64,000 bases of DNA. Source: Porphyrobacter sp. IPPAS B-1204. Its GTDB lineage: Bacteria; Pseudomonadota; Alphaproteobacteria; Sphingomonadales; Sphingomonadaceae. Shown in pieces: positions 53,615 to 64,000 of this stretch (position 1 is the stretch's first letter; the number at the start of each line of letters is the position of its first letter). A program made the position numbers and the translations under genes. Location: NCBI GenBank assembly GCA_003724185.1, contig RHGM01000003.1:310001-374000 (forward strand). Reading direction: 5' to 3'. The notes beneath the pieces are model-generated. The model did no database searches, had not been told where the DNA came from, and worked only from the letters and a program-made list of their open reading frames with translations.

Positions 53615-53690
<76 letters not shown>

Positions 53691-53772
53691 TTTTTGCACC
53701 GCCGCTTTCTTCCTGCGCAGCAAAAGCGATGCTGTGCCGATCGTCCGGTCTGATCGGTTGGTTCGGCAATTC

Positions 53773-55431
53773 TTACCGGGCAGCAGCGCCTGCGTGACAA
53801 CTGCGGGCCTCGGCAGCGCCGAGGCTTAGCGCCACGGCTTCGGCAATCTTGATACCATCCACCGCCGCCGACAGGATGCCCCCGGCATAACCGGCCCCCT
53901 CGCCCGCAGGGAACAGCCCCGCCGTGTTCAGGCTTTGAAAATCCTTGCCGCGGGTGAAACGGACCGGTGATGACGTGCGGGTTTCGACGCCGGTCATCAA
54001 CACATTGGGGTGATCATAGCCCGGGATCTGTCGGCCGAAAACGGGCAGCGCCTCCCGCATCGCGGTCACAGCATAATCGGGCAGGCATTGCGCCAGATCG
54101 GTCATATGCACCCCGGGCTTGTAGGATGGTGTCACCGAACCAAGCGCCTCCGAGGGGCGCCCGGCGAGAAAGTCTCCCAGTCTTTGCGCGGGAGCCTTGT
54201 AGCTCGATCCGCCGGCAACATAGGCCATCGATTCCCAATGACGTTGCAGCGCGATCCCGGCGAGCGGATCGCCGGGGAAGTCCCGCGCCGGATCAATCGC
54301 GACAACAAGGCCCGAGTTGGCGTTACGCTCGTTGCGCGAATACTGGCTCATGCCGTTGGTGGCGACGCGCCCTTCCTCGGATGTCGCGGCGACGACCGTG
54401 CCGCCCGGGCACATGCAGAAGCTGTAGACTGTGCGATCATTCTTGCAGTGGTGCGAGATGTGATACTCGGCCGCGCCTAGGATCTTGTTGCCGGCATCAA
54501 TGCCGAACCGCGACTTGTCGATCCACGACTGCGGATGTTCGATCCTGACCCCGATCGAAAACGGCTTGGCCTCGACATGGACTCCGGCGGCATGGAGCAT
54601 GGCAAACGTGTCGCGCGCGCTGTGACCGATGGCGAGCACGACATGGTCTGCCTCCAGATACTCGCCAGTGCTCAGATGGAGCCCGCGAACGCGGCGATTC
54701 CCTTGGGCATCGGTGGTGATATCAATGCCATCGACCCGGTTCGAGAAGCGATATCTTCCGCCGAGCGCCTCGATGCTCTTGCGCATGCTCTCGACCATCG
54801 TCACCAGCCGGAAGGTTCCGATATGCGGATGCGCCTCGGTGAGGATTTCGGACGGCGCGCCGGCCTTCACGAATTCGGTCAGCACCTTGCGGTCGCGGTT
54901 GTTCGGATCCTTGATCCGGCTGTAGAGCTTCCCATCGGAAAATGTGCCCGCGCCGCCTTCGCCGAACTGGGCGTTGGATTCCGGGTTGAGCACCCCCTGT
55001 CGCCACAGCCCCCAGGTGTCCTTGGTCCGCTCACGAACCACTTTCCCCCGGTCAAGGATGATCGGGCGGAACCCCATCTGGGCGAGGATCAGGCCCGCAA
55101 ACAGCCCGCATGGCCCCGCTCCGATAACGATGGGCCGTTTGTGCGTGCCCCCTTCGGGCGCGGTGGCAACCAGATGGTAGCGCGGGTCGGGGGCGGGAAA
55201 GACGTTACGATCCTTGCGGAAGCGCTGGAGCACCGCCGCCTCGTTCTTCACGTTCACATCGACCGAATAGACCAGCTGAATGTTCGTCTTGTCGCGCGCA
55301 TCATGGCCGCGGCGGGCCACGACAAAACGAACCAGATCGCGCGGGGTGATCCGCAGCCGCTTGCAGATCGCAGCAGGCAGGGCCTCATCCGGATGATGGA
55401 GCGGCAGGGTCAGTTCGGTGATGCGCAGCAT
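53773..55431 (-). CDS. FAD-dependent dehydrogenase (COG2509-like)
   Basis: A 552-residue flavoprotein with an N-terminal ~90-residue lead domain and the dinucleotide motif VIGAGPCGLFAGL. Other conserved parts are QFGEGGAGTFSDGKLYSR, VLAIGHSARDTF, SFCMCPGGTVVAATSE and GEGAGYAGGILSAAVDG. This belongs to the widespread, uncharacterised FAD-dependent dehydrogenases. It is divergent from the carboxylesterase gene. Confidence 0.88.
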   Translation of the reverse strand: MLRITELTLPLHHPDEALPAAICKRLRITPRDLVRFVVARRGHDARDKTNIQLVYSVDVNVKNEAAVLQRFRKDRNVFPAPDPRYHLVATAPEGGTHKRPIVIGAGPCGLFAGLILAQMGFRPIILDRGKVVRERTKDTWGLWRQGVLNPESNAQFGEGGAGTFSDGKLYSRIKDPNNRDRKVLTEFVKAGAPSEILTEAHPHIGTFRLVTMVESMRKSIEALGGRYRFSNRVDGIDITTDAQGNRRVRGLHLSTGEYLEADHVVLAIGHSARDTFAMLHAAGVHVEAKPFSIGVRIEHPQSWIDKSRFGIDAGNKILGAAEYHISHHCKNDRTVYSFCMCPGGTVVAATSEEGRVATNGMSQYSRNERNANSGLVVAIDPARDFPGDPLAGIALQRHWESMAYVAGGSSYKAPAQRLGDFLAGRPSEALGSVTPSYKPGVHMTDLAQCLPDYAVTAMREALPVFGRQIPGYDHPNVLMTGVETRTSSPVRFTRGKDFQSLNTAGLFPAGEGAGYAGGILSAAVDGIKIAEAVALSLGAAEARSCHAGAAAR

Positions 55432-55553
55432 GGTGCATGCATTAGAGAGTCATGGCGCGGGTTGCCAATCGCTCATATGCCGTCAGCCGCAAACTTGCTG
55501 CGGCACATCGCCAACGAACACGCGGTTTTCAAAAAACAGGAAAGACCAATTCA

Positions 55554-56213
55554 TTGTCGAAGATTGTCAATGGCGCCAGCCTGAAGCCGCGCTCCGGAGC
55601 GCGGCCGCGGAACATCGTGCTGTTCCTCCACGGCTTTGGTTCAAGCGGAACCGACATGATTGCGCTTGCGCCCCACTGGCAGGACGCGCTTCCCGATACG
55701 CTGTTCCTTGCACCCCACGCACCCCAGCGGTGCGGGATGATGGGCATGGGCTATCAGTGGTGGGGTTTGTCAGGATTTGCGCCGTCGGCCCTGGCGGCGG
55801 GTGCAGCATCTGCGGCGCCTGCGATTGACGCCTTTATTGATCGCAAGCTGGCCGAGTATGATCTGACAGAGGCGGATCTGGCGCTGGTCGGCTTCAGCCA
55901 GGGCACGATGATGGCTTTGCATATCGGGCTGCGCCGACCGCGAGCGGTTGCTGCCGTGGTAGGCTATTCGGGAATGCTCACCGCAACGACAGGGCTTGCA
56001 CACGGTGAATTGGCAAAGCCACCCGTGTTGCTGGTGCACGGCACGGCTGATCCGGTTGTACCGATTGCGGCGCTGCATATGGCAGAAAGCGAGCTCAAAC
56101 GGCTTGGTGTCGAGGTCACGACACACATATCCCACGGGATACCTCACAGCGTGGATCCCGTTGGCTTGCGCCTCGGGCGGGACTTTGTGGCCAAGGCTTT
56201 TTCAGGCCATTGA
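55554..56213 (+). CDS. Phospholipase/carboxylesterase (COG0400)
   Basis: A 219-residue serine hydrolase from the TTG at 55554. The family N-terminus (IVNGASLKPRSG) and FLHGFGSSGTDM follow directly. Nucleophile elbow GFSQGT, acid in HGTADPVVP and histidine in GIPHSVDP complete the triad. An in-frame ATG at 55452 would add a basic stretch with no family similarity, so the later start is preferred but not certain. Substrate unknown. Confidence 0.82.
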   Translation: MSKIVNGASLKPRSGARPRNIVLFLHGFGSSGTDMIALAPHWQDALPDTLFLAPHAPQRCGMMGMGYQWWGLSGFAPSALAAGAASAAPAIDAFIDRKLAEYDLTEADLALVGFSQGTMMALHIGLRRPRAVAAVVGYSGMLTATTGLAHGELAKPPVLLVHGTADPVVPIAALHMAESELKRLGVEVTTHISHGIPHSVDPVGLRLGRDFVAKAFSGH

Positions 56214-56264
56214 CGACACGGCGCGCCGCCAGAGATATCGCTGATTCTGGGCACGAGCAGGCCA

Positions 56265-56948
56265 TCACCCCTCGTCGGCGAAGGTCACCTGCGCGGCATC
56301 GGTGACGTGCACCCAGACCTGATAATAGCCCACCTCGTGCTCGCCATAGAAGTTTGCGAGCGGTTTGGGGGTGCCGATCGGAGAATCGATCCAGTTCCGG
56401 CGCACTTCGCCCTCGACGATGATGCGCCGCCCGCCGAGCCGCTGCATCATCGTGAACATGTTGAGATCGGGCACCGCCTCGCCATAGCAAGCCTTCACGG
56501 TGATCTGCCCGTCGATCACATCGGCGCCGCCGCAGCTGCGCGCACGCCGCAGAAGCGCGTGCAGGGCATCGGGTTCGAAGGCGATGGTCAGCGTCCCGAG
56601 CGTGGCATAATCGCGCCGCGAATTGACGAACATCATCGTGCCAAGCTGGCCCTGGAAGCTCTGCCCGCCGCCCTGAATATCGAGCAGGAAACGCCCGGTG
56701 CGGCCCTCGCCCTCCGCCGCTGCGAGGGCCATCGCGGTCGCCTCGCCCGGCGTGATGCAGCCGGTTTCGCAGTCGGCCAACGCGGGGCGCGCGGCCTTCA
56801 GCGAAGCGTCGGCATCGGCAAGGGTAGCAAGGTGAGCGGCCAGCTGCGGATCAATGGCCGCATCATCGGCATGGACCGGAACGCCGATGAGCGGCGCGAA
56901 AGCGAGCAGTGTGACCGCCCCGCACCGCACAGCCTTTTTCCCTAGCAT
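56265..56948 (-). CDS. Secreted protein of unknown function
   Basis: A 227-residue protein with signal peptide (cleavage after VHA, about residue 27). The mature protein has two close cysteines (DCETGCI) and two more later (SCGGAD, KACYGE), probably disulfides. The second half is beta-rich. No family recognised. It lies 68 bp after accA on the same strand but need not be functionally linked. Confidence 0.7.
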   Translation of the reverse strand: MLGKKAVRCGAVTLLAFAPLIGVPVHADDAAIDPQLAAHLATLADADASLKAARPALADCETGCITPGEATAMALAAAEGEGRTGRFLLDIQGGGQSFQGQLGTMMFVNSRRDYATLGTLTIAFEPDALHALLRRARSCGGADVIDGQITVKACYGEAVPDLNMFTMMQRLGGRRIIVEGEVRRNWIDSPIGTPKPLANFYGEHEVGYYQVWVHVTDAAQVTFADEG

Positions 56949-57016
56949 CGTGAAGCCCTGCGCATCGCCTGGCACCCTTTGCGAGGTGCCCTGAACCACG
57001 CGTGAATCTTTCGTGC

Positions 57017-57943
57017 CTAACCCAGCCGGAGAAAGAACTCCTCTCGTTCGCGGCGCAGTTCGGCGGGCGTCATCGCTGTCAGTGCGGCGAGTTCGGCGCG
57101 CAGCGCCAGCGTCAAACGCTTGACCGTCTCGGCGTGATCGCGGTGTGCCCCGCCCCGTGGTTCATAGACGATGCGGTGGATCACGCCGAGCTTCAGTAAG
57201 TCCCCCGCAGTCACCCGCATGGCCTCGGCAGCGGTGGCCGCCTGCGCGGCGCTGCGCCACAGGATCGAAGCGCAGCCTTCGGGGCTGATCACCGAATAGA
57301 CCGCGTGTTCCAGCATCAGCACCCGGTTCGCCGCCGCCAGCGCCACCGCCCCGCCCGATCCGCCTTCGCCGATGATCACCGCAATCAGCGGCACGCCCAG
57401 CGCAAGGCACGCCTCGGTCGAACGGGCGATGGCTTCGGCCTGCCCGCGCGCTTCGGCATCGATGCCGGGGAAGGCACCGGGGGTATCGACCAACGTGACC
57501 ACGGGAAGGCCAAAGCGGTCCGCAAGTTCCATCAGCCGGATCGCCTTGCGGTAGCCTTCGGGCCGGGCCATGCCGAAATTGTGCTTCAGCCGCCCGGGCG
57601 TGTCTTCGCCCTTCACGTGGCCGATCACCACCACCTTGCGGCCTTCGAACCGCGCAAAGCCGCCGATGATCGCCTGATCATCGCCGAACACGCGGTCGCC
57701 TGCGATGGGCAGGAAGCCCTCGAACAATCCCGCGACCAGCTTTTCAAAGCGAGGTCGCTGGGGGTGGCGGGCCACCAGCGTGCGCTCCCACGGGGTGAGC
57801 CGGGCGTAGGTGTCGGCCAGCAGACGCTCGGCCCGCTCGGCCAGCATCCGCGCCTCGGCCACGCCTTCGGGGAGCGCCGCCAGTTCGGCAACGTGCCGGT
57901 CCAGCGCCTCGATCGGCTTTTCGAAAGGCAGGTACTGGATCAT
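57017..57943 (-). CDS. accA: Acetyl-CoA carboxylase carboxyltransferase subunit alpha
   Basis: A 308-residue AccA. It forms the carboxyltransferase with AccD, transferring CO2 from biotin to acetyl-CoA to make malonyl-CoA. Signatures are YLPFEKPIEAL at the start, ARHPQRPRFEKLVAGL, the LKHNFGMARPEGYRKA loop and GEGGSGGAVALAAANRVLM. It begins 16 bp after the malonyl-CoA reductase stop on the same strand, so they are almost certainly co-transcribed. Whether this is the sole accA or a pathway-dedicated copy cannot be known from the window. Confidence 0.94.
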   Translation of the reverse strand: MIQYLPFEKPIEALDRHVAELAALPEGVAEARMLAERAERLLADTYARLTPWERTLVARHPQRPRFEKLVAGLFEGFLPIAGDRVFGDDQAIIGGFARFEGRKVVVIGHVKGEDTPGRLKHNFGMARPEGYRKAIRLMELADRFGLPVVTLVDTPGAFPGIDAEARGQAEAIARSTEACLALGVPLIAVIIGEGGSGGAVALAAANRVLMLEHAVYSVISPEGCASILWRSAAQAATAAEAMRVTAGDLLKLGVIHRIVYEPRGGAHRDHAETVKRLTLALRAELAALTAMTPAELRREREEFFLRLG

Positions 57944-57959
57944 CCCCCCGCGATGCCCC

Positions 57960-60900
57960 TCAGACCGTCATCGACATGCCGCGATAGATCCGCGCACGAT
58001 AGCGCGAATCCTCGGCGTCGGGCAGCGGCGCACCAACCAGCAGTACGGCGCGGGCGAAGCGGCGCACCTCTTCCAGATGCTCGTCGAGATCGCGTGGTTC
58101 CTCGGATTGCACGCGGCGGGTGAGGTTGATCTGGTTGACCGGCACATCATGCACCAACCGCTCGTTCTCCACGGCGAGAGTCGCGGTGAAGGCGTGCAGC
58201 GTGGTCTTGATGAAGTTCGCCAGCGCGAAGGCCGGGGACTTGTCGCCCATCGGCACATCGGGGCTGGTCAGCACCAGCTGGCAATCATCATACAGCGATG
58301 CGCGGCGGGAAACGCGGAAGTGATGGGTGAGGTTGTCGGCCACCACGGTGCGGAACTCCTCCGGGGTGAGCGGATCGTCCTGACCGAACAGCTTGCCGGG
58401 AAGCGCGGCGAACGGTGTCGAGAGGATCGTGGTCGGCTTGCCCCAAGCCATCAGCGCCTCGTCCATCGCGGCTTCGATATCGGTGGTCTTGACCAGGGAT
58501 GTGAGCGAGGCGGCGGTGTCGGGATCAAGCTGCGACTTGATCGCCTCGAAGCCTTCGGCGGTGCGGGTGATCAGCACCACGTTGGCGGCATGGCAATCCT
58601 CGATGAAGGCGCGCGCGGTTTCGGCGAGGTAATCGACGAGATGTTCGCCGATGATCCACACCGTCTTGCCGCGCATCTGGTCAAGCCGTTCCTGCTTGGG
58701 CGAGCCGAACAGTTCGCGCTCAGTGGTGGAGCGTTCCACGCTGAGCCCGCCCGAGGGCATGAAGGTCTCGCCGGAAACCGCACGATCGGCAAGGAAGAAC
58801 ACTGTTGCCTGGGCCACGTCATGCTCGGTCGGCATCTTGCCGAGATAGAGCTTGGACAGCACCCCGGTGCCGACCTTCTTGGCCTCGACCGCGATCTTGT
58901 CGGCGGGGAGGAAGGGCGCGTCTTCCGGCGGCACGCGCAGCAGCCAGTCGGCGTCGGCCGCGGGCGTGGCCGGGCGGTCGTTCCACTCGGGCGCGTCAAG
59001 GAACAGCCCCGCCTGCCGCAGACGCGACACCAGCGCGGCGGCGATGGTGGGGGTGAGCAGATACTGGTCCCAAGTGCAGGCCCCATCGCCCTCGCGCGCG
59101 CAGGCCAGCGCCAACTCGCGCAGTTCGCGCGGGTTGTTGGTGTCGTGGCTCATCTTGGTGGTGTCATTGCGGGCAAGCCGCGCCAGCACCGCCTCGACCC
59201 GCACCCCGCGCCGGATCGCCTTGATCGCGGCGGCGTGGACGGCGTTGAGCCGCTTGTTTTCAAGGATCAGCTTGCCGCGCCGTTCGAACAGGCCCGGCTT
59301 GCCGCCGGTGCCCGACAGGCGGTCGCCATCCACCGGGCCCGGCGCGATCGCGTTGAACTGGACTTCGGGGCCGAGGTAACGCGCCATCGATTCAACCATC
59401 GCACGCTGGCCGGCCTTGGACACGGCGTAATCCGCACGGTTCGGGTAAGCCACCGCAAGATATTTCTCGCCGCCGAAATAGGACGAGACGTTGAGGATGT
59501 AGCCCGATCCTTGCGCCTTCATCAGCGGCGCGACGTGATGCATCAGGAAGTAATTCGACACGAGGTTGGCATCGAGCGTGTAGTTCCACGCGTCCACGCC
59601 CATGTCGACGACCATGTCCTCCGCACCTGCGACGCCCGCGTTGTTGATGAGGTAGTCGATCCGCCCGAAGGCCTTGAGCGTAGCGTCGACGGCGCCTTTC
59701 AGGCTCTCGAAATTGCTGACGTCCACGTTGGCGAGGGTCTGCACCCGGCGCTCGACACCGGCAAAGCCGATGTCCTCAAGCTCGGAGACGATCCGCGCCC
59801 GCGCCACCGCCAGCTCGCTTTCGCGCCGGGCGACCATCATCACCTTGCCGCCTGCAAGCGCGAGCAGCCGCGCGACCTGTCCGCCGATCCCGGCCGAACC
59901 GCCGGTGATCAGCGCCACCTTGCCCAGATGCAGCCCGGTGATGTTCTCGCTGAAGCCCGGCATCGCCTTGCGCGCCCCGGTCGCCTCGCCGATGTTCGAC
60001 GGGACGTAGAGCGTGATTTCGCCGAGCTTGCTTTCCTTCAGCAGAATGCGCGCTGCGTGGCCTGCGGTGAAGCGGATGTTCTCCGCTTCGGTGTTGGTGA
60101 AGCGCACGATCTGGTTGCCCCACTCGGCCTGACGACGGCGGCCATGGGCGGTGTCGATCTCGCTCTCGTCGCGCCAGATGCGGATGAGCTGTTCGGTCGC
60201 GGCGCGCAGGATGTGGCCGTAGATGTCGCCCTTCCCGTCGCTGGCATGGCTCACGAACACGAAGCGCGGCGGTTGCAGCAGGTTGTCGTGCCGCTTCCAG
60301 TAACGGCTGAGGGTGCGGGCGAGCGCCATGTTGCCTGCCAATTCGGCGTCCATCAGCGCCTCAATGACGCTGTCATCCGCTTCGGTGATCGCGCCTGCCA
60401 GTTCGCCTGCGCTCAAGGCGGGCAGGAACAGCGCGCCGCTGACGGGGGTGCCGCCCTTGGTGTAATCCTCCAGCGCCTCTTCCATCCCTGCCGGGTCTTT
60501 CCGGCTGAAGCGGATGATCGCGAGCTTGTCCGAAAGGCCCAGCGCCTTGCAGCGCTTTTCGGCGATGGCAACGTCGGCAGCGCGTGGCAGGCCGAGCACG
60601 ACCTCGGCCCCGCAGGCCAACTGCACCTGCGCGATTTCCAGCGCCTCTTCGAAATTGTCGCCTGCCGCGATCAGCACGGCAAGGCCCGTGCCGTCCATCG
60701 AACGCATGGTGGGACGTGCAAGGTAGGTGGAGCGCTGCTCCTTGCGCACGCTCATCCCGTGGGTAACTTCGAAATCATGGCCGTTGTAAGCCGCGCTCTC
60801 GTCACTGCCGAGGAAAACGCAGGTGGTGGCGATATCGGTCGGCGTGGGGAAGGTCTTGGCCTTGTCGTTTCCGCCCGTCGCCCGCTCAAGGCTCATCATG

Positions 60901-61658
60901 TCGAAGAACTGCGTGGCGGTGGTGCCGGCTGCATCGCCGCGCGCGGTGTCCATCGCGGCAAAGACGTTGCGGATGCGCTCGCTCTCGATCGGGCCGGGGT
61001 AGACGAGGTTGACGCGGATGCCCTTGGGGCCAAGCTCCAGCGACAATTCGCGGCTCCACGCGTTCATCGCTGCCTTCGGGACGACATAGGCCGCGCGCGC
61101 ATAATAGGGCGTGCGGCTGAAAATGGTCGACACGTTGATGATCGAGCCGCCTTCGGGGATGTGTTCGGCGGCAACGCGGGCGACATTCCAGGCGACGCCG
61201 AAGATGTTGCGCAGCGCATCGCCCACGGTCTCGCTGTCGGTCGAGCCCTGCTTCTGGAGCGCGGCGAGTTCTTCCCCCGACAGCGGCAGGTTTTCGATCG
61301 GTTGCTTGGGCCCGGCGCTACCGGCGTTGTTCACCAGAATGTCGATCCGCCCGAACTGCTTGACCACCTCGGCAATCGCGGCGCGCACCGAGGCGATGTC
61401 TCCGCCGTCCAATGCCACGGTCGCCAGCCGCGCCGGGTCTGCACCGGTCGCCTTGAGCAGCGCCTCGGCGGCGGCCTTGGTGCGATCAGGCGTGCGGCCC
61501 GTCATCACCACGGTTGCGCCTTCTGCAAGGTAATGGGTGACGATGTGCCCGCCCAGATTGCCCGCAGCGCCGGTGACGACGGCGATCTTGCCCGCCAGAC
61601 GGCCCGGAACATCGCCTTGCAGAGCGGGCGCAGCAGCAACGGCCTTCGACTTAGCCAT
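57960..61658 (-). CDS. mcr: Malonyl-CoA reductase, bifunctional (3-hydroxypropionate forming)
   Basis: A 1232-residue protein with two SDR halves, matching the ~1220-residue Mcr of Chloroflexus. N-terminal SDR (about 20-310): TGAAGNLGG (29-37), S177, Y191 and K195; in the family this half reduces malonate semialdehyde to 3-hydroxypropionate. C-terminal SDR (about 575-840): TGGSAGIGG (585-593), S725, Y744, K748; this half reduces malonyl-CoA to malonate semialdehyde, followed by a third SDR-like, non-classical region to 1232. Both half-sites are intact, with NADPH the expected donor. RBS GGAGAG. It lies between propionyl-CoA synthase and accA, supporting the assignment. Confidence 0.93.
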   Translation of the reverse strand: MAKSKAVAAAPALQGDVPGRLAGKIAVVTGAAGNLGGHIVTHYLAEGATVVMTGRTPDRTKAAAEALLKATGADPARLATVALDGGDIASVRAAIAEVVKQFGRIDILVNNAGSAGPKQPIENLPLSGEELAALQKQGSTDSETVGDALRNIFGVAWNVARVAAEHIPEGGSIINVSTIFSRTPYYARAAYVVPKAAMNAWSRELSLELGPKGIRVNLVYPGPIESERIRNVFAAMDTARGDAAGTTATQFFDMMSLERATGGNDKAKTFPTPTDIATTCVFLGSDESAAYNGHDFEVTHGMSVRKEQRSTYLARPTMRSMDGTGLAVLIAAGDNFEEALEIAQVQLACGAEVVLGLPRAADVAIAEKRCKALGLSDKLAIIRFSRKDPAGMEEALEDYTKGGTPVSGALFLPALSAGELAGAITEADDSVIEALMDAELAGNMALARTLSRYWKRHDNLLQPPRFVFVSHASDGKGDIYGHILRAATEQLIRIWRDESEIDTAHGRRRQAEWGNQIVRFTNTEAENIRFTAGHAARILLKESKLGEITLYVPSNIGEATGARKAMPGFSENITGLHLGKVALITGGSAGIGGQVARLLALAGGKVMMVARRESELAVARARIVSELEDIGFAGVERRVQTLANVDVSNFESLKGAVDATLKAFGRIDYLINNAGVAGAEDMVVDMGVDAWNYTLDANLVSNYFLMHHVAPLMKAQGSGYILNVSSYFGGEKYLAVAYPNRADYAVSKAGQRAMVESMARYLGPEVQFNAIAPGPVDGDRLSGTGGKPGLFERRGKLILENKRLNAVHAAAIKAIRRGVRVEAVLARLARNDTTKMSHDTNNPRELRELALACAREGDGACTWDQYLLTPTIAAALVSRLRQAGLFLDAPEWNDRPATPAADADWLLRVPPEDAPFLPADKIAVEAKKVGTGVLSKLYLGKMPTEHDVAQATVFFLADRAVSGETFMPSGGLSVERSTTERELFGSPKQERLDQMRGKTVWIIGEHLVDYLAETARAFIEDCHAANVVLITRTAEGFEAIKSQLDPDTAASLTSLVKTTDIEAAMDEALMAWGKPTTILSTPFAALPGKLFGQDDPLTPEEFRTVVADNLTHHFRVSRRASLYDDCQLVLTSPDVPMGDKSPAFALANFIKTTLHAFTATLAVENERLVHDVPVNQINLTRRVQSEEPRDLDEHLEEVRRFARAVLLVGAPLPDAEDSRYRARIYRGMSMTV

Positions 61659-61681
61659 AGAACTCTCCTCACAGAATTACC

Positions 61682-61698
61682 GCGAAGCCGTGCTTCGC
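61682..61698 (-). other. Inverted repeat between pcs and mcr
   Basis: GCGAAGC, a 3-nt CGT and GCTTCGC form a perfect 7-bp stem 24 bp upstream of the mcr start, in the 104-bp gap after pcs. It may be an mRNA processing or stability hairpin or an attenuator; no T-run follows. Confidence 0.4.
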
Positions 61699-61762
61699 TT
61701 TGTGTTTCGTTCAAACCCTGGGGAGGAGAGCTAAGAACGTTTCAAAAATCGCAACGCACGTG

Positions 61763-64000
61763 TCAGCCTTCCGGTTCCCCGAGACTTGCAGCCGACCACG
61801 CTTCAAGCAGCGCATCGCGGCTGCGCAGGCCCATTTCGGGGAGCGCATGGTTGACCACATAGGTCGATCCGGTGTGCCGGTTGTCCCACATCGCCTGATG
61901 CGCTTCTGGCAGCCCGTCCCACGGCACAACCTCAGGCTCGGTCACTTCGAGCAAGCCCGCCGCGATCATGTCGTTCATCCGTGCGACTTCGTAGGCATTG
62001 CACAGGTGCGTGCCGAAGATCTGAGCGGTCGGCATGAAGATGCGGCGCTGGCGGGTCCAGACCTGCGGGGCGTAGAAGGTGAAGCGGCAACCGGTCAGAT
62101 CCTCGGCGAAGATCACACGGCCCGTGAAGGGCTTCACCAGCGAGGTCGAGATGCCGAGCGTGTCCTGCCCGGCGCGCTCGAACACCAGATCGGGGCTACC
62201 GCGGGGATTGTCGGGCGAGCGCAGGATCTTGCCTACCGCCGAACCGAAGGGCTTCATCACCCGGTCCTGATAATCGCGCACCGCCGCCTTGAAGACCTCG
62301 ATATCCGCCTTGGCATCGGGCAGGCGCGGCATGGTGCCCGGCCAGTAGAAATTCGCGCCCTCCCGCCTGCGGATCGCTTCAAGGCTGACGATGCCTTCAA
62401 TCGCGTCTTCCAGCCCCAGCGATTGCAGGAATTCGCGCTGGCCATCGGTAGTGGTGGCGATGACAGAACGGGCGTTGAAGCGGCGTGCGGCTTCGATCAT
62501 CTGCAGCCCGGTTTCGTCGAGCAGTTCGGACGATCCGGGGCCATAGAAGATCAGCACCGCCTCCCCGCCCCGCAGCGCGGCGCGGCGGAGCATGTCTTCC
62601 GGGCTTGCCGTGCCCGGCTTGCCCATGAAGCTGAAGTGATAGCCGGACGATGCGCCGTAAAACGCCAGCGTCCCGCCTTCCGCGAGCAACTGGAACGAGC
62701 GCGGAAAGGCGGTTTCGCCGGCATGGCTCACCACGTAATCGGCAAGCTTGCCGCCGTTCAGGGCCTTGTATTCCTCGACCAGCGGCGCGCCTGCGGCCTC
62801 CCACGCAATCGCCTCGGCCTTGTCCTCCGGCACTACGCTGTAAAGGCCTGCAAAGCGCGCATCCTTGCGGTTGATCGCCCCGACCGCGCCCTGCACTTGC
62901 GTGATGAAACTGGCGCGCTCCTCCGAGGACACCAGCCCCGTCACCTGCAAGCCGGTGCGCACCGACGACCGCAGCGCATCGAGCCCCGTCCCCGTCGCCG
63001 CGCCTTCAACGAACAGAGTCCGTCCGGGCGCGATCTGCAACGTGGTGAAGAGGCAGCGCGCAATCGTGCCGAGATTGAGCACATAGCTCCCTGCCTGCTC
63101 CAGTGTCAGATCGGGCGGCACCTTGTGCATCTGCGGGGCCTGCACAGTGAGGAACTGCGCATGGCTGCCAGTTTCGGTTTCGTAGCCCTGAATGCTGAAA
63201 TCGGCATACATCGGATCATTGCCGACCAGCGGGCTGAGAAGGTCATTGGTGCCCGAATAGACCGTCACCAGATCGCCAACCTTGATCCGCCCCTGCGCCC
63301 GCGTTTCGGACCCCAGCGCCGCTACCAAGGCGATGCCGCCTGATCCGGTGATCTGGACGTCTTCTTCGTGGCTGTCGAAGGGCGAGACGGGGATGCCGGT
63401 CAGCGCCCAGATGTCGTTGAAGTTGACCTCGCTGGTCAGCATGTAGAGCAGCGCCTCATTGGGCGCAGGCTCTGGCACGGCGACGATCAGCTCCTTCTCG
63501 TGGCTCGCAGGCGGGCCAAACCGCGGCGCGCCGGTGTCGGGATCGCGGGCGATGCCGAAGGCGTATTGGTGACGCGGGATCGGGGTCACGCCGGGATAAA
63601 ACGGCGCTCCCACAGGAAGCAGATCGCCTGCTGCCTCCAACGCCTGCGCACGCCTTTCGTGCTCGGCATCAATCCACACGCCATCGCGCCGCACCGGGAG
63701 CGGGGGCGCAACCTTGTCCATGAACTGGCGGATACCGGTCTTCCCGCCTTCGGGATCGACGATGGCATCGGCGAACAGCGCGGCTTCCTTGGCAAGGCCA
63801 GCGGTCATGCCCTGTTCAAGGCCCACGCGCACCGCTTCCAGCGCCCGCTCGCCCGCGCCGCCACGCCCGGCCCAATCGAGCTGGCGCAGGATGCGCTGGA
63901 GGAAGTGATCCTCCATCACCGCATCGAGCGACACCTCCGCCGCCGTATCCCAACGCTCCACCGCTGCCTGCCTTTCGGCAAAGGCCGCGCCCAGCGGGCT
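61763..64000 (-). CDS. pcs: Propionyl-CoA synthase, C-terminal part (5' end outside window)
   Basis: Only the last 745 residues are inside the window; the frame is open to base 64000. The first ~80 residues (GLEQGMTAGLAKEAALFADA, TGIRQFMDK) look like the end of an enoyl-CoA hydratase domain. The rest is a medium-chain reductase with SEVNFNDIWALTG and cofactor motif EGAATGTGLDAL, related to crotonyl-CoA carboxylase/reductase. ECH followed by such a reductase is the end of trifunctional propionyl-CoA synthase (~1820 residues; acyl-CoA synthetase, hydratase, acrylyl-CoA reductase), which turns 3-hydroxypropionate into propionyl-CoA. The mcr neighbour strongly supports this. A lone CCR is excluded by the hydratase part. 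Confidence 0.9.
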   Translation of the reverse strand, partial: SPLGAAFAERQAAVERWDTAAEVSLDAVMEDHFLQRILRQLDWAGRGGAGERALEAVRVGLEQGMTAGLAKEAALFADAIVDPEGGKTGIRQFMDKVAPPLPVRRDGVWIDAEHERRAQALEAAGDLLPVGAPFYPGVTPIPRHQYAFGIARDPDTGAPRFGPPASHEKELIVAVPEPAPNEALLYMLTSEVNFNDIWALTGIPVSPFDSHEEDVQITGSGGIALVAALGSETRAQGRIKVGDLVTVYSGTNDLLSPLVGNDPMYADFSIQGYETETGSHAQFLTVQAPQMHKVPPDLTLEQAGSYVLNLGTIARCLFTTLQIAPGRTLFVEGAATGTGLDALRSSVRTGLQVTGLVSSEERASFITQVQGAVGAINRKDARFAGLYSVVPEDKAEAIAWEAAGAPLVEEYKALNGGKLADYVVSHAGETAFPRSFQLLAEGGTLAFYGASSGYHFSFMGKPGTASPEDMLRRAALRGGEAVLIFYGPGSSELLDETGLQMIEAARRFNARSVIATTTDGQREFLQSLGLEDAIEGIVSLEAIRRREGANFYWPGTMPRLPDAKADIEVFKAAVRDYQDRVMKPFGSAVGKILRSPDNPRGSPDLVFERAGQDTLGISTSLVKPFTGRVIFAEDLTGCRFTFYAPQVWTRQRRIFMPTAQIFGTHLCNAYEVARMNDMIAAGLLEVTEPEVVPWDGLPEAHQAMWDNRHTGSTYVVNHALPEMGLRSRDALLEAWSAASLGEPEG

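Follow-up and report, generated by a model that had tools for sequence, protein, structure and literature searches.

The last ~7 kb of a 64,000-nucleotide stretch of Porphyrobacter sp. IPPAS B-1204 carry a cassette of three genes, pcs, mcr and accA, in a bacterium that also encodes photosynthesis genes. We consider it likely that the cassette converts acetyl-CoA and bicarbonate to propionyl-CoA, via malonyl-CoA and 3-hydroxypropionate. The stretch is referred to here as the window (G000:C8:310001-374000, G000 being the strain's own genome). It belongs to a contig of ~1.1 Mb within a 3.55 Mb genome. The evidence comprises the genes and their domain make-up, the catalytic residues of the malonyl-CoA reductase (MCR), the co-occurrence of mcr with the reaction centre genes pufLM, and the copy numbers and phylogenetic grouping of accA.

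Cassette layout and enzymes

The genes lie in tandem on the minus strand: accA at 57017..57943 (carboxyltransferase alpha of acetyl-CoA carboxylase, a paralogue joined to mcr, 308 aa), mcr at 57960..61658 (bifunctional MCR, 1,232 aa) and pcs at 61763..64000 (propionyl-CoA synthase, PCS). Place and strand agreed with the initial annotation, which had also recognized that pcs is cut by the window edge. The window holds the C-terminal 745 of its 1,826 aa, and the entire minus-strand open reading frame (ORF) was recovered from the sequence past the edge (L007:7763-13243, window-equivalent end 67243). The intergenic gaps were 104 bp between pcs and mcr and 16 bp between mcr and accA. Five terminator-like sites were observed, compared with 5.3 in shuffles. 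The three genes are presumably co-transcribed.

Residues 15–1820 of PCS formed one unbroken alignment with residues 25–1843 of 6eqo, which we take to be the PCS of Erythrobacter sp. NAP1. Judged by this single alignment, the protein has the fused synthetase, enoyl-CoA hydratase and enoyl-CoA reductase architecture, and the synthetase domain, on which the initial annotation had made its call depend, is present past the window edge. Both halves of MCR were near-identical to the solved chains 6k8s and 6k8v, presumably the enzyme of Porphyrobacter dokdonensis, and the protein aligned from residue 18/20 to 1232 with the solved bifunctional MCRs 8hjw and 8hi4. A study on Roseiflexus MCR mentions solved structures for both halves of the P. 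dokdonensis enzyme and names the catalytic residues of the Roseiflexus protein, a Thr-Tyr-Lys set in SDR1 and, in SDR3, a Ser-Tyr-Lys set together with an Arg (PMC10470521). Transferred by motif and offset, without aligning the Roseiflexus protein itself, these residues correspond here to T178, Y191 and K195 in SDR1, kept in all 32 covering rows of a 33-row MCR set, and to S726, R741, Y744 and K748 in SDR3, kept in 33 of 33 rows. Both active SDR domains thus retain their catalytic residues, and the predicted MCR and PCS proteins are both full length. The structure alignments, the MCR residues and the AccA models described below support the enzyme identities and the reaction order originally proposed. 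They also bear out the remark that the enzyme families are not new, MCR being near-identical to solved chains and PCS alignable to 6eqo.

In our sample of 298 genomes from the family Sphingomonadaceae, pcs was found immediately 5' of mcr in 28 of the 30 mcr-bearing genomes, G256 holding only the end of pcs. In the remaining two (G231 and G022) the contig terminates where pcs would be expected. The same order was found in all three mcr genomes from outside the family. With contig ends as the only gaps in the pattern, the arrangement is not due to chance. pcs-mcr is the standard pair, to which accA is added in a minority of genomes.

The accA gene joined to mcr

The joined AccA scored above the cut-offs of two NCBIfam models (NF004344, 418 bits, cut-off 357; TIGR00513, 360 bits, cut-off 319) and carries a GEGGSGGA motif. 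A second accA, of housekeeping type and 64% identical to the joined copy, was located at G000:C9:95171-96109, preceded by a xerC/D-type tyrosine recombinase gene. We searched for accA in all 30 mcr-bearing genomes and in 10 of the 268 others in the family sample. Of the 29 family genomes that could be judged (the 30 mcr-bearing ones minus G250, where the contig ends), nine have an accA starting less than 100 bp past mcr, and so does Aerophototrophica crusticola (Rhodospirillales). The gene is missing from this position in the other 20 family genomes. The attached accA had initially been read as the sign of a dedicated module. This idea gains from the joined gene being a second copy that has diverged from the housekeeping type, and it loses from the joining in just nine of 29 genomes and from the lack of accB, accC and accD alongside accA at the locus.

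The ten joined copies formed one clade, separate from every other copy, in two AccA trees, with a support of 90/63 in the first (48 rows) and 88/52 in the second (86% of bootstrap trees), from which the long branches G679 and G005 were removed. None of the ten has Glu at residue 110 (Ala in seven, Val in two, Gln in one). Of the 38 remaining rows, 37 carry Glu at this residue, and the exception is a gammaproteobacterial metagenome-assembled genome (MAG) with Gln. In the window's AccA, position 110 is a Val, flanked by His109 and Lys111. The window copy clustered with those of its genus-mate G260, A. crusticola and G022 in AccA (95/91 in the first tree, 90/89 in the second), and the same four genomes grouped in the MCR tree (99/99). 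It thus seems that the two genes moved jointly from lineage to lineage.

A chance rearrangement could have placed a mere spare housekeeping subunit behind mcr. In line with this, accA stands alone, without accB, accC and accD, and no single residue is common to the joined copies against the rest, 75 columns being invariant across all 48 rows. However, the ten copies cluster, all lack Glu110, and begin within 100 bp of the mcr end even in A. crusticola, a member of another order, so we regard chance joining as unlikely. A true chance neighbour is exemplified by G072, in which accA lies 2,078 bp behind mcr and is of housekeeping type by tree.

A second, housekeeping-type accA is retained in five of the genomes with a joined copy (the own genome, G260, G284, G173 and A. 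crusticola). The joined accA was the sole match at E 1e-60 in G030, G113 and G219 (99–100% complete), G256 (82%) and G022 (67%). The first four of these form, with G173, the five mcr-bearing members of one genus, g31; G173 is the member having both accA types. The simplest reading of these copy numbers, which derive from draft assemblies, is that the joined accA took over the essential role in g31. As it seems to hold this role as the only copy found, it would be functional. The accA lineage thus looks like a case in which a subunit of an essential enzyme has passed into the hands of a side pathway.

Link to phototrophy

The host genome encodes pufL, pufM, bchC, bchY and bchZ (over cut-offs), a bchG/chlG-type synthase and ppsR. 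By its gene content the host is a phototroph, with a type II reaction centre and bacteriochlorophyll genes, contradicting the earlier impression of a heterotroph. Across the family sample, mcr was present in 30 of 298 genomes and pufLM was over the cut-off in 55, among which G118, with a Photo_RC match below the cut-off, is not counted. pufLM was found in 28 of the 30 mcr-bearing genomes, the two without it being G022 (67% complete, 420 contigs) and G190 (88%, 330 contigs). The one-sided Fisher test for co-occurrence gave 8e-22 over genomes (n = 298). By genus, mcr was found in 10 of 27 puf-bearing genera versus 1 of 69 others (Fisher, 6.7e-6). Within the own genus, mcr was found in two of seven genomes. 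All three genomes without pufLM lacked it, as did two of the four with pufLM. The genus-mates with and without the cassette are natural controls.

The same association was seen outside the family. In a sample of the class, two of 385 genomes carried mcr, the own genome and G419, from another family. In G419, 1.6 kb separate the pcs-mcr pair from pufM, and a DUF3422 gene occupies this interval. A scan of named genomes with loose patterns kept 80 loci. We dropped 78 of them, which matched in SDR segments only, and the two matching MCR over nearly its whole length came from A. crusticola (L015) and the gammaproteobacterial MAG (L014). One match list comprised 120 of 1,221 matches, 15 of which were aligned with the window's protein. 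All three mcr genomes outside the family (G419, A. crusticola and the MAG) contained pufLM. We computed the distance between mcr and pufLM in ten genomes that have the two on a single contig; it was 63–123 kb in G001, G095, G134, G207 and G272, and 0.45–1.65 Mb in G260, G038, G140 and G236.

Two side observations concern the photosynthesis genes themselves. At the G419 locus (L201, G419:C13:17001-37000), pufM-pufL and nitrogenase-like reductase-type genes (PF00148 twice, PF00142) were found beside pcs-mcr. The members of genus g7 (G006, G100, G162, G211) had four Photo_RC matches each, in two places per genome, apparently two reaction centre sets.

Surface waters commonly harbour aerobic anoxygenic phototrophs, and the amount of CO2 that these fix is of interest. 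Because pcs-mcr is nested almost strictly within pufLM genomes, the carbon side of photoheterotrophy can be put to the test.

Predicted route, known systems and genomic surroundings

Going by established chemistry, AccA would join AccB, AccC and AccD, presumably encoded elsewhere, in the ATP-dependent carboxylation of acetyl-CoA to malonyl-CoA. MCR would then use two NADPH to form 3-hydroxypropionate, which PCS would convert to propionyl-CoA with ATP and one NADPH. From there the path would continue to succinyl-CoA through propionyl-CoA carboxylase (PCC), epimerase and mutase, whose genes lie elsewhere in the genome, with a co-assimilation of two bicarbonates per acetyl-CoA. Judging from the tie of mcr to pufLM, light-driven ATP probably pays for this costly route and makes it affordable. 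Flux through the route and its light dependence, like the transfer of the cassette and the direction of that transfer, are inferred.

The cassette could instead serve mainly imported 3-hydroxypropionate, through PCS, or act as an NADPH redox valve, CO2 fixation being incidental. As a matter of general knowledge of the family, PCS alone turns 3-hydroxypropionate into propionyl-CoA, and the whole route would use three NADPH per acetyl-CoA. However, the constant position of mcr right after pcs, contig ends aside, fits a supply from malonyl-CoA, as does the joining of accA in one lineage, which suits such a supply better than 3-hydroxypropionate import. We therefore find this alternative improbable.

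Of the further bicycle genes listed for checking in the initial annotation, we searched the genome for those of PCC, epimerase, mutase and malyl-CoA lyase; candidates were found for the steps to succinyl-CoA, but no clear malyl-CoA lyase. Contig C9, which also harbours the housekeeping-type accA, has a cluster encoding a PCC-beta-like protein, methylmalonyl-CoA epimerase, methylmalonyl-CoA mutase and a 686-aa PCC-alpha-like biotin-carboxylase protein. Epimerase and mutase were above their model cut-offs. The PCC-beta-like protein was best matched by a subfamily model (768 of 999 bits, under the cut-off), and the PCC-alpha-like protein was under the cut-offs of its models. With these proteins, the gene set predicted to lead from acetyl-CoA to succinyl-CoA is present. 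Isocitrate lyase was also found, in the host as in 257 of the 298 family genomes, and replacement of the glyoxylate shunt by the cassette was rejected for the host genome on this ground. Since the PCC-like subunits, epimerase, mutase and isocitrate lyase are present and the family and model searches of the host genome returned no clear malyl-CoA lyase, a route ending in succinyl-CoA appears likelier than the full bicycle.

A complete 3-hydroxypropionate bicycle in the host, with autotrophic growth possible, is very improbable. In its favour, the genome encodes the first half as well as the branch to succinyl-CoA, and its sole HpcH/HpaI-family protein matches the malyl-CoA lyases 5ugr (107 bits) and 4l9y (96 bits) over its whole length. 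Against it, CitE-type chains give this protein a slightly better score (118 bits), and its best models are RipC and citE, although it lies below every equivalog cut-off and reaches 62 of 500 bits with the haloarchaeal malyl-CoA lyase model. Its best match to the HpcH/HpaI aldolase 4l7z/4l80, which we take to be the malyl-CoA lyase of Chloroflexus, covers residues 27–182, with 68 bits.

Several known systems resemble the predicted route to succinyl-CoA. The ethylmalonyl-CoA pathway of Rhodobacterales phototrophs is another CO2-coassimilating acetyl-CoA route, and its enzymes differ from those of the pcs-mcr-accA cassette. In Chloroflexus and Roseiflexus, a bifunctional MCR and a trifunctional PCS carry the first half of the 3-hydroxypropionate bicycle. 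Both enzyme types are shared with our system (Roseiflexus MCR: PMC10470521), whereas the host here is an alphaproteobacterium with isocitrate lyase and without a clear malyl-CoA lyase. Closest in both enzymes and kind of host is the partial bicycle with pcs and mcr of Erythrobacter sp. NAP1 and Porphyrobacter, which are aerobic anoxygenic phototrophs. Here an accA paralogue lies behind mcr, in contrast to 20 of the 29 judgeable family genomes. For Porphyrobacter sp. ULC335, a study reports daytime upregulation of 3-hydroxypropionate bicycle genes, proposes CO2 co-assimilation and likens the strain to NAP1 (PMC10674011). The pathway, its enzymes and the proposal of CO2 co-assimilation in a related phototroph are thus already known. 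New are the accA-bearing version of the cassette, the single accA lineage, and the proposed capture of accA and displacement of the housekeeping gene. Our searches of the open literature, which leave out most subscription-journal papers, gave no title or abstract on an accA attached to mcr or on its displacement of the housekeeping copy.

Transfer across lineages is probable for the cassette, with one cassette lineage capturing accA. We tentatively raise a broader proposal, which is possible but still doubtful: a mobile, phototrophy-bound carbon-fixing cassette, whose captured and specialised AccA enters acetyl-CoA carboxylase and feeds MCR, and which in one genus displaced the housekeeping accA, coupling lipid synthesis to light-linked CO2 assimilation. 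A number of observations weigh against our main reading, that of a light-linked cassette with its own AccA. The Fisher tests, whether over genomes or genera, do not amount to full phylogenetic control. Phototrophy does not require mcr, since 27 of the 55 pufLM genomes lack it, and the host, which has isocitrate lyase, can replenish its intermediates from acetate without this route. The support for the joined-accA clade is only moderate, the MCR tree requires two changes of the accA label, and the accA of G072 was first labelled as joined and regrouped after the first tree had placed it with housekeeping-type copies. Finally, none of 29 loci had a PpsR-type TGT-N12-ACA box within 400 bp upstream of the estimated pcs start, against an expectation of 1.3 from letter shuffling, in a scan run without a positive control and with poorly estimated pcs starts in G260 and G272.

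Regarding means of transfer, plasmid carriage was rejected because a search of 72,556 plasmid records gave no mcr match at E 1e-100. Where flanking proteins recurred in at least three genomes (25 largest clusters examined), they did so within one genus, a point in favour of our main reading. An empty-site comparison with genus-mates was unworkable, as the flanking gene was found in just two of the seven genomes (G000 and G260). Integration at a tRNA site is suggestive at most, a tRNA lying within 1 kb of the cassette in only three of 30 loci (G260, 50 bp; G169, 98 bp; G173, 996 bp).

On the 3' side of the own cassette, a tRNA-Thr (TGT) was predicted by ARAGORN and Rfam at 53615..53690 on the plus strand. 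It lies 3.3 kb behind accA and outside L007, which ends short of it. In G260, the corresponding tRNA-Thr is the one found 50 bp behind accA (ARAGORN; blastn of the window against L156). The interval between tRNA-Thr and accA (53690–57015) encodes an esterase-like protein and a FAD-dependent protein, whose G260 homologue is located elsewhere in that genome, and contains an orphan ORF of 244 aa (56265..56999, minus strand) 17 bp behind accA. This ORF had no NCBIfam or Pfam match. We rejected it as a fourth cassette gene and consider it a neighbour outside the conserved cassette, as it gave no tblastn match at 1e-8 in 31 other loci and is not behind the accA of G260. On the other side of the cassette, a divergent PAS-GGDEF-EAL gene lies upstream of pcs.

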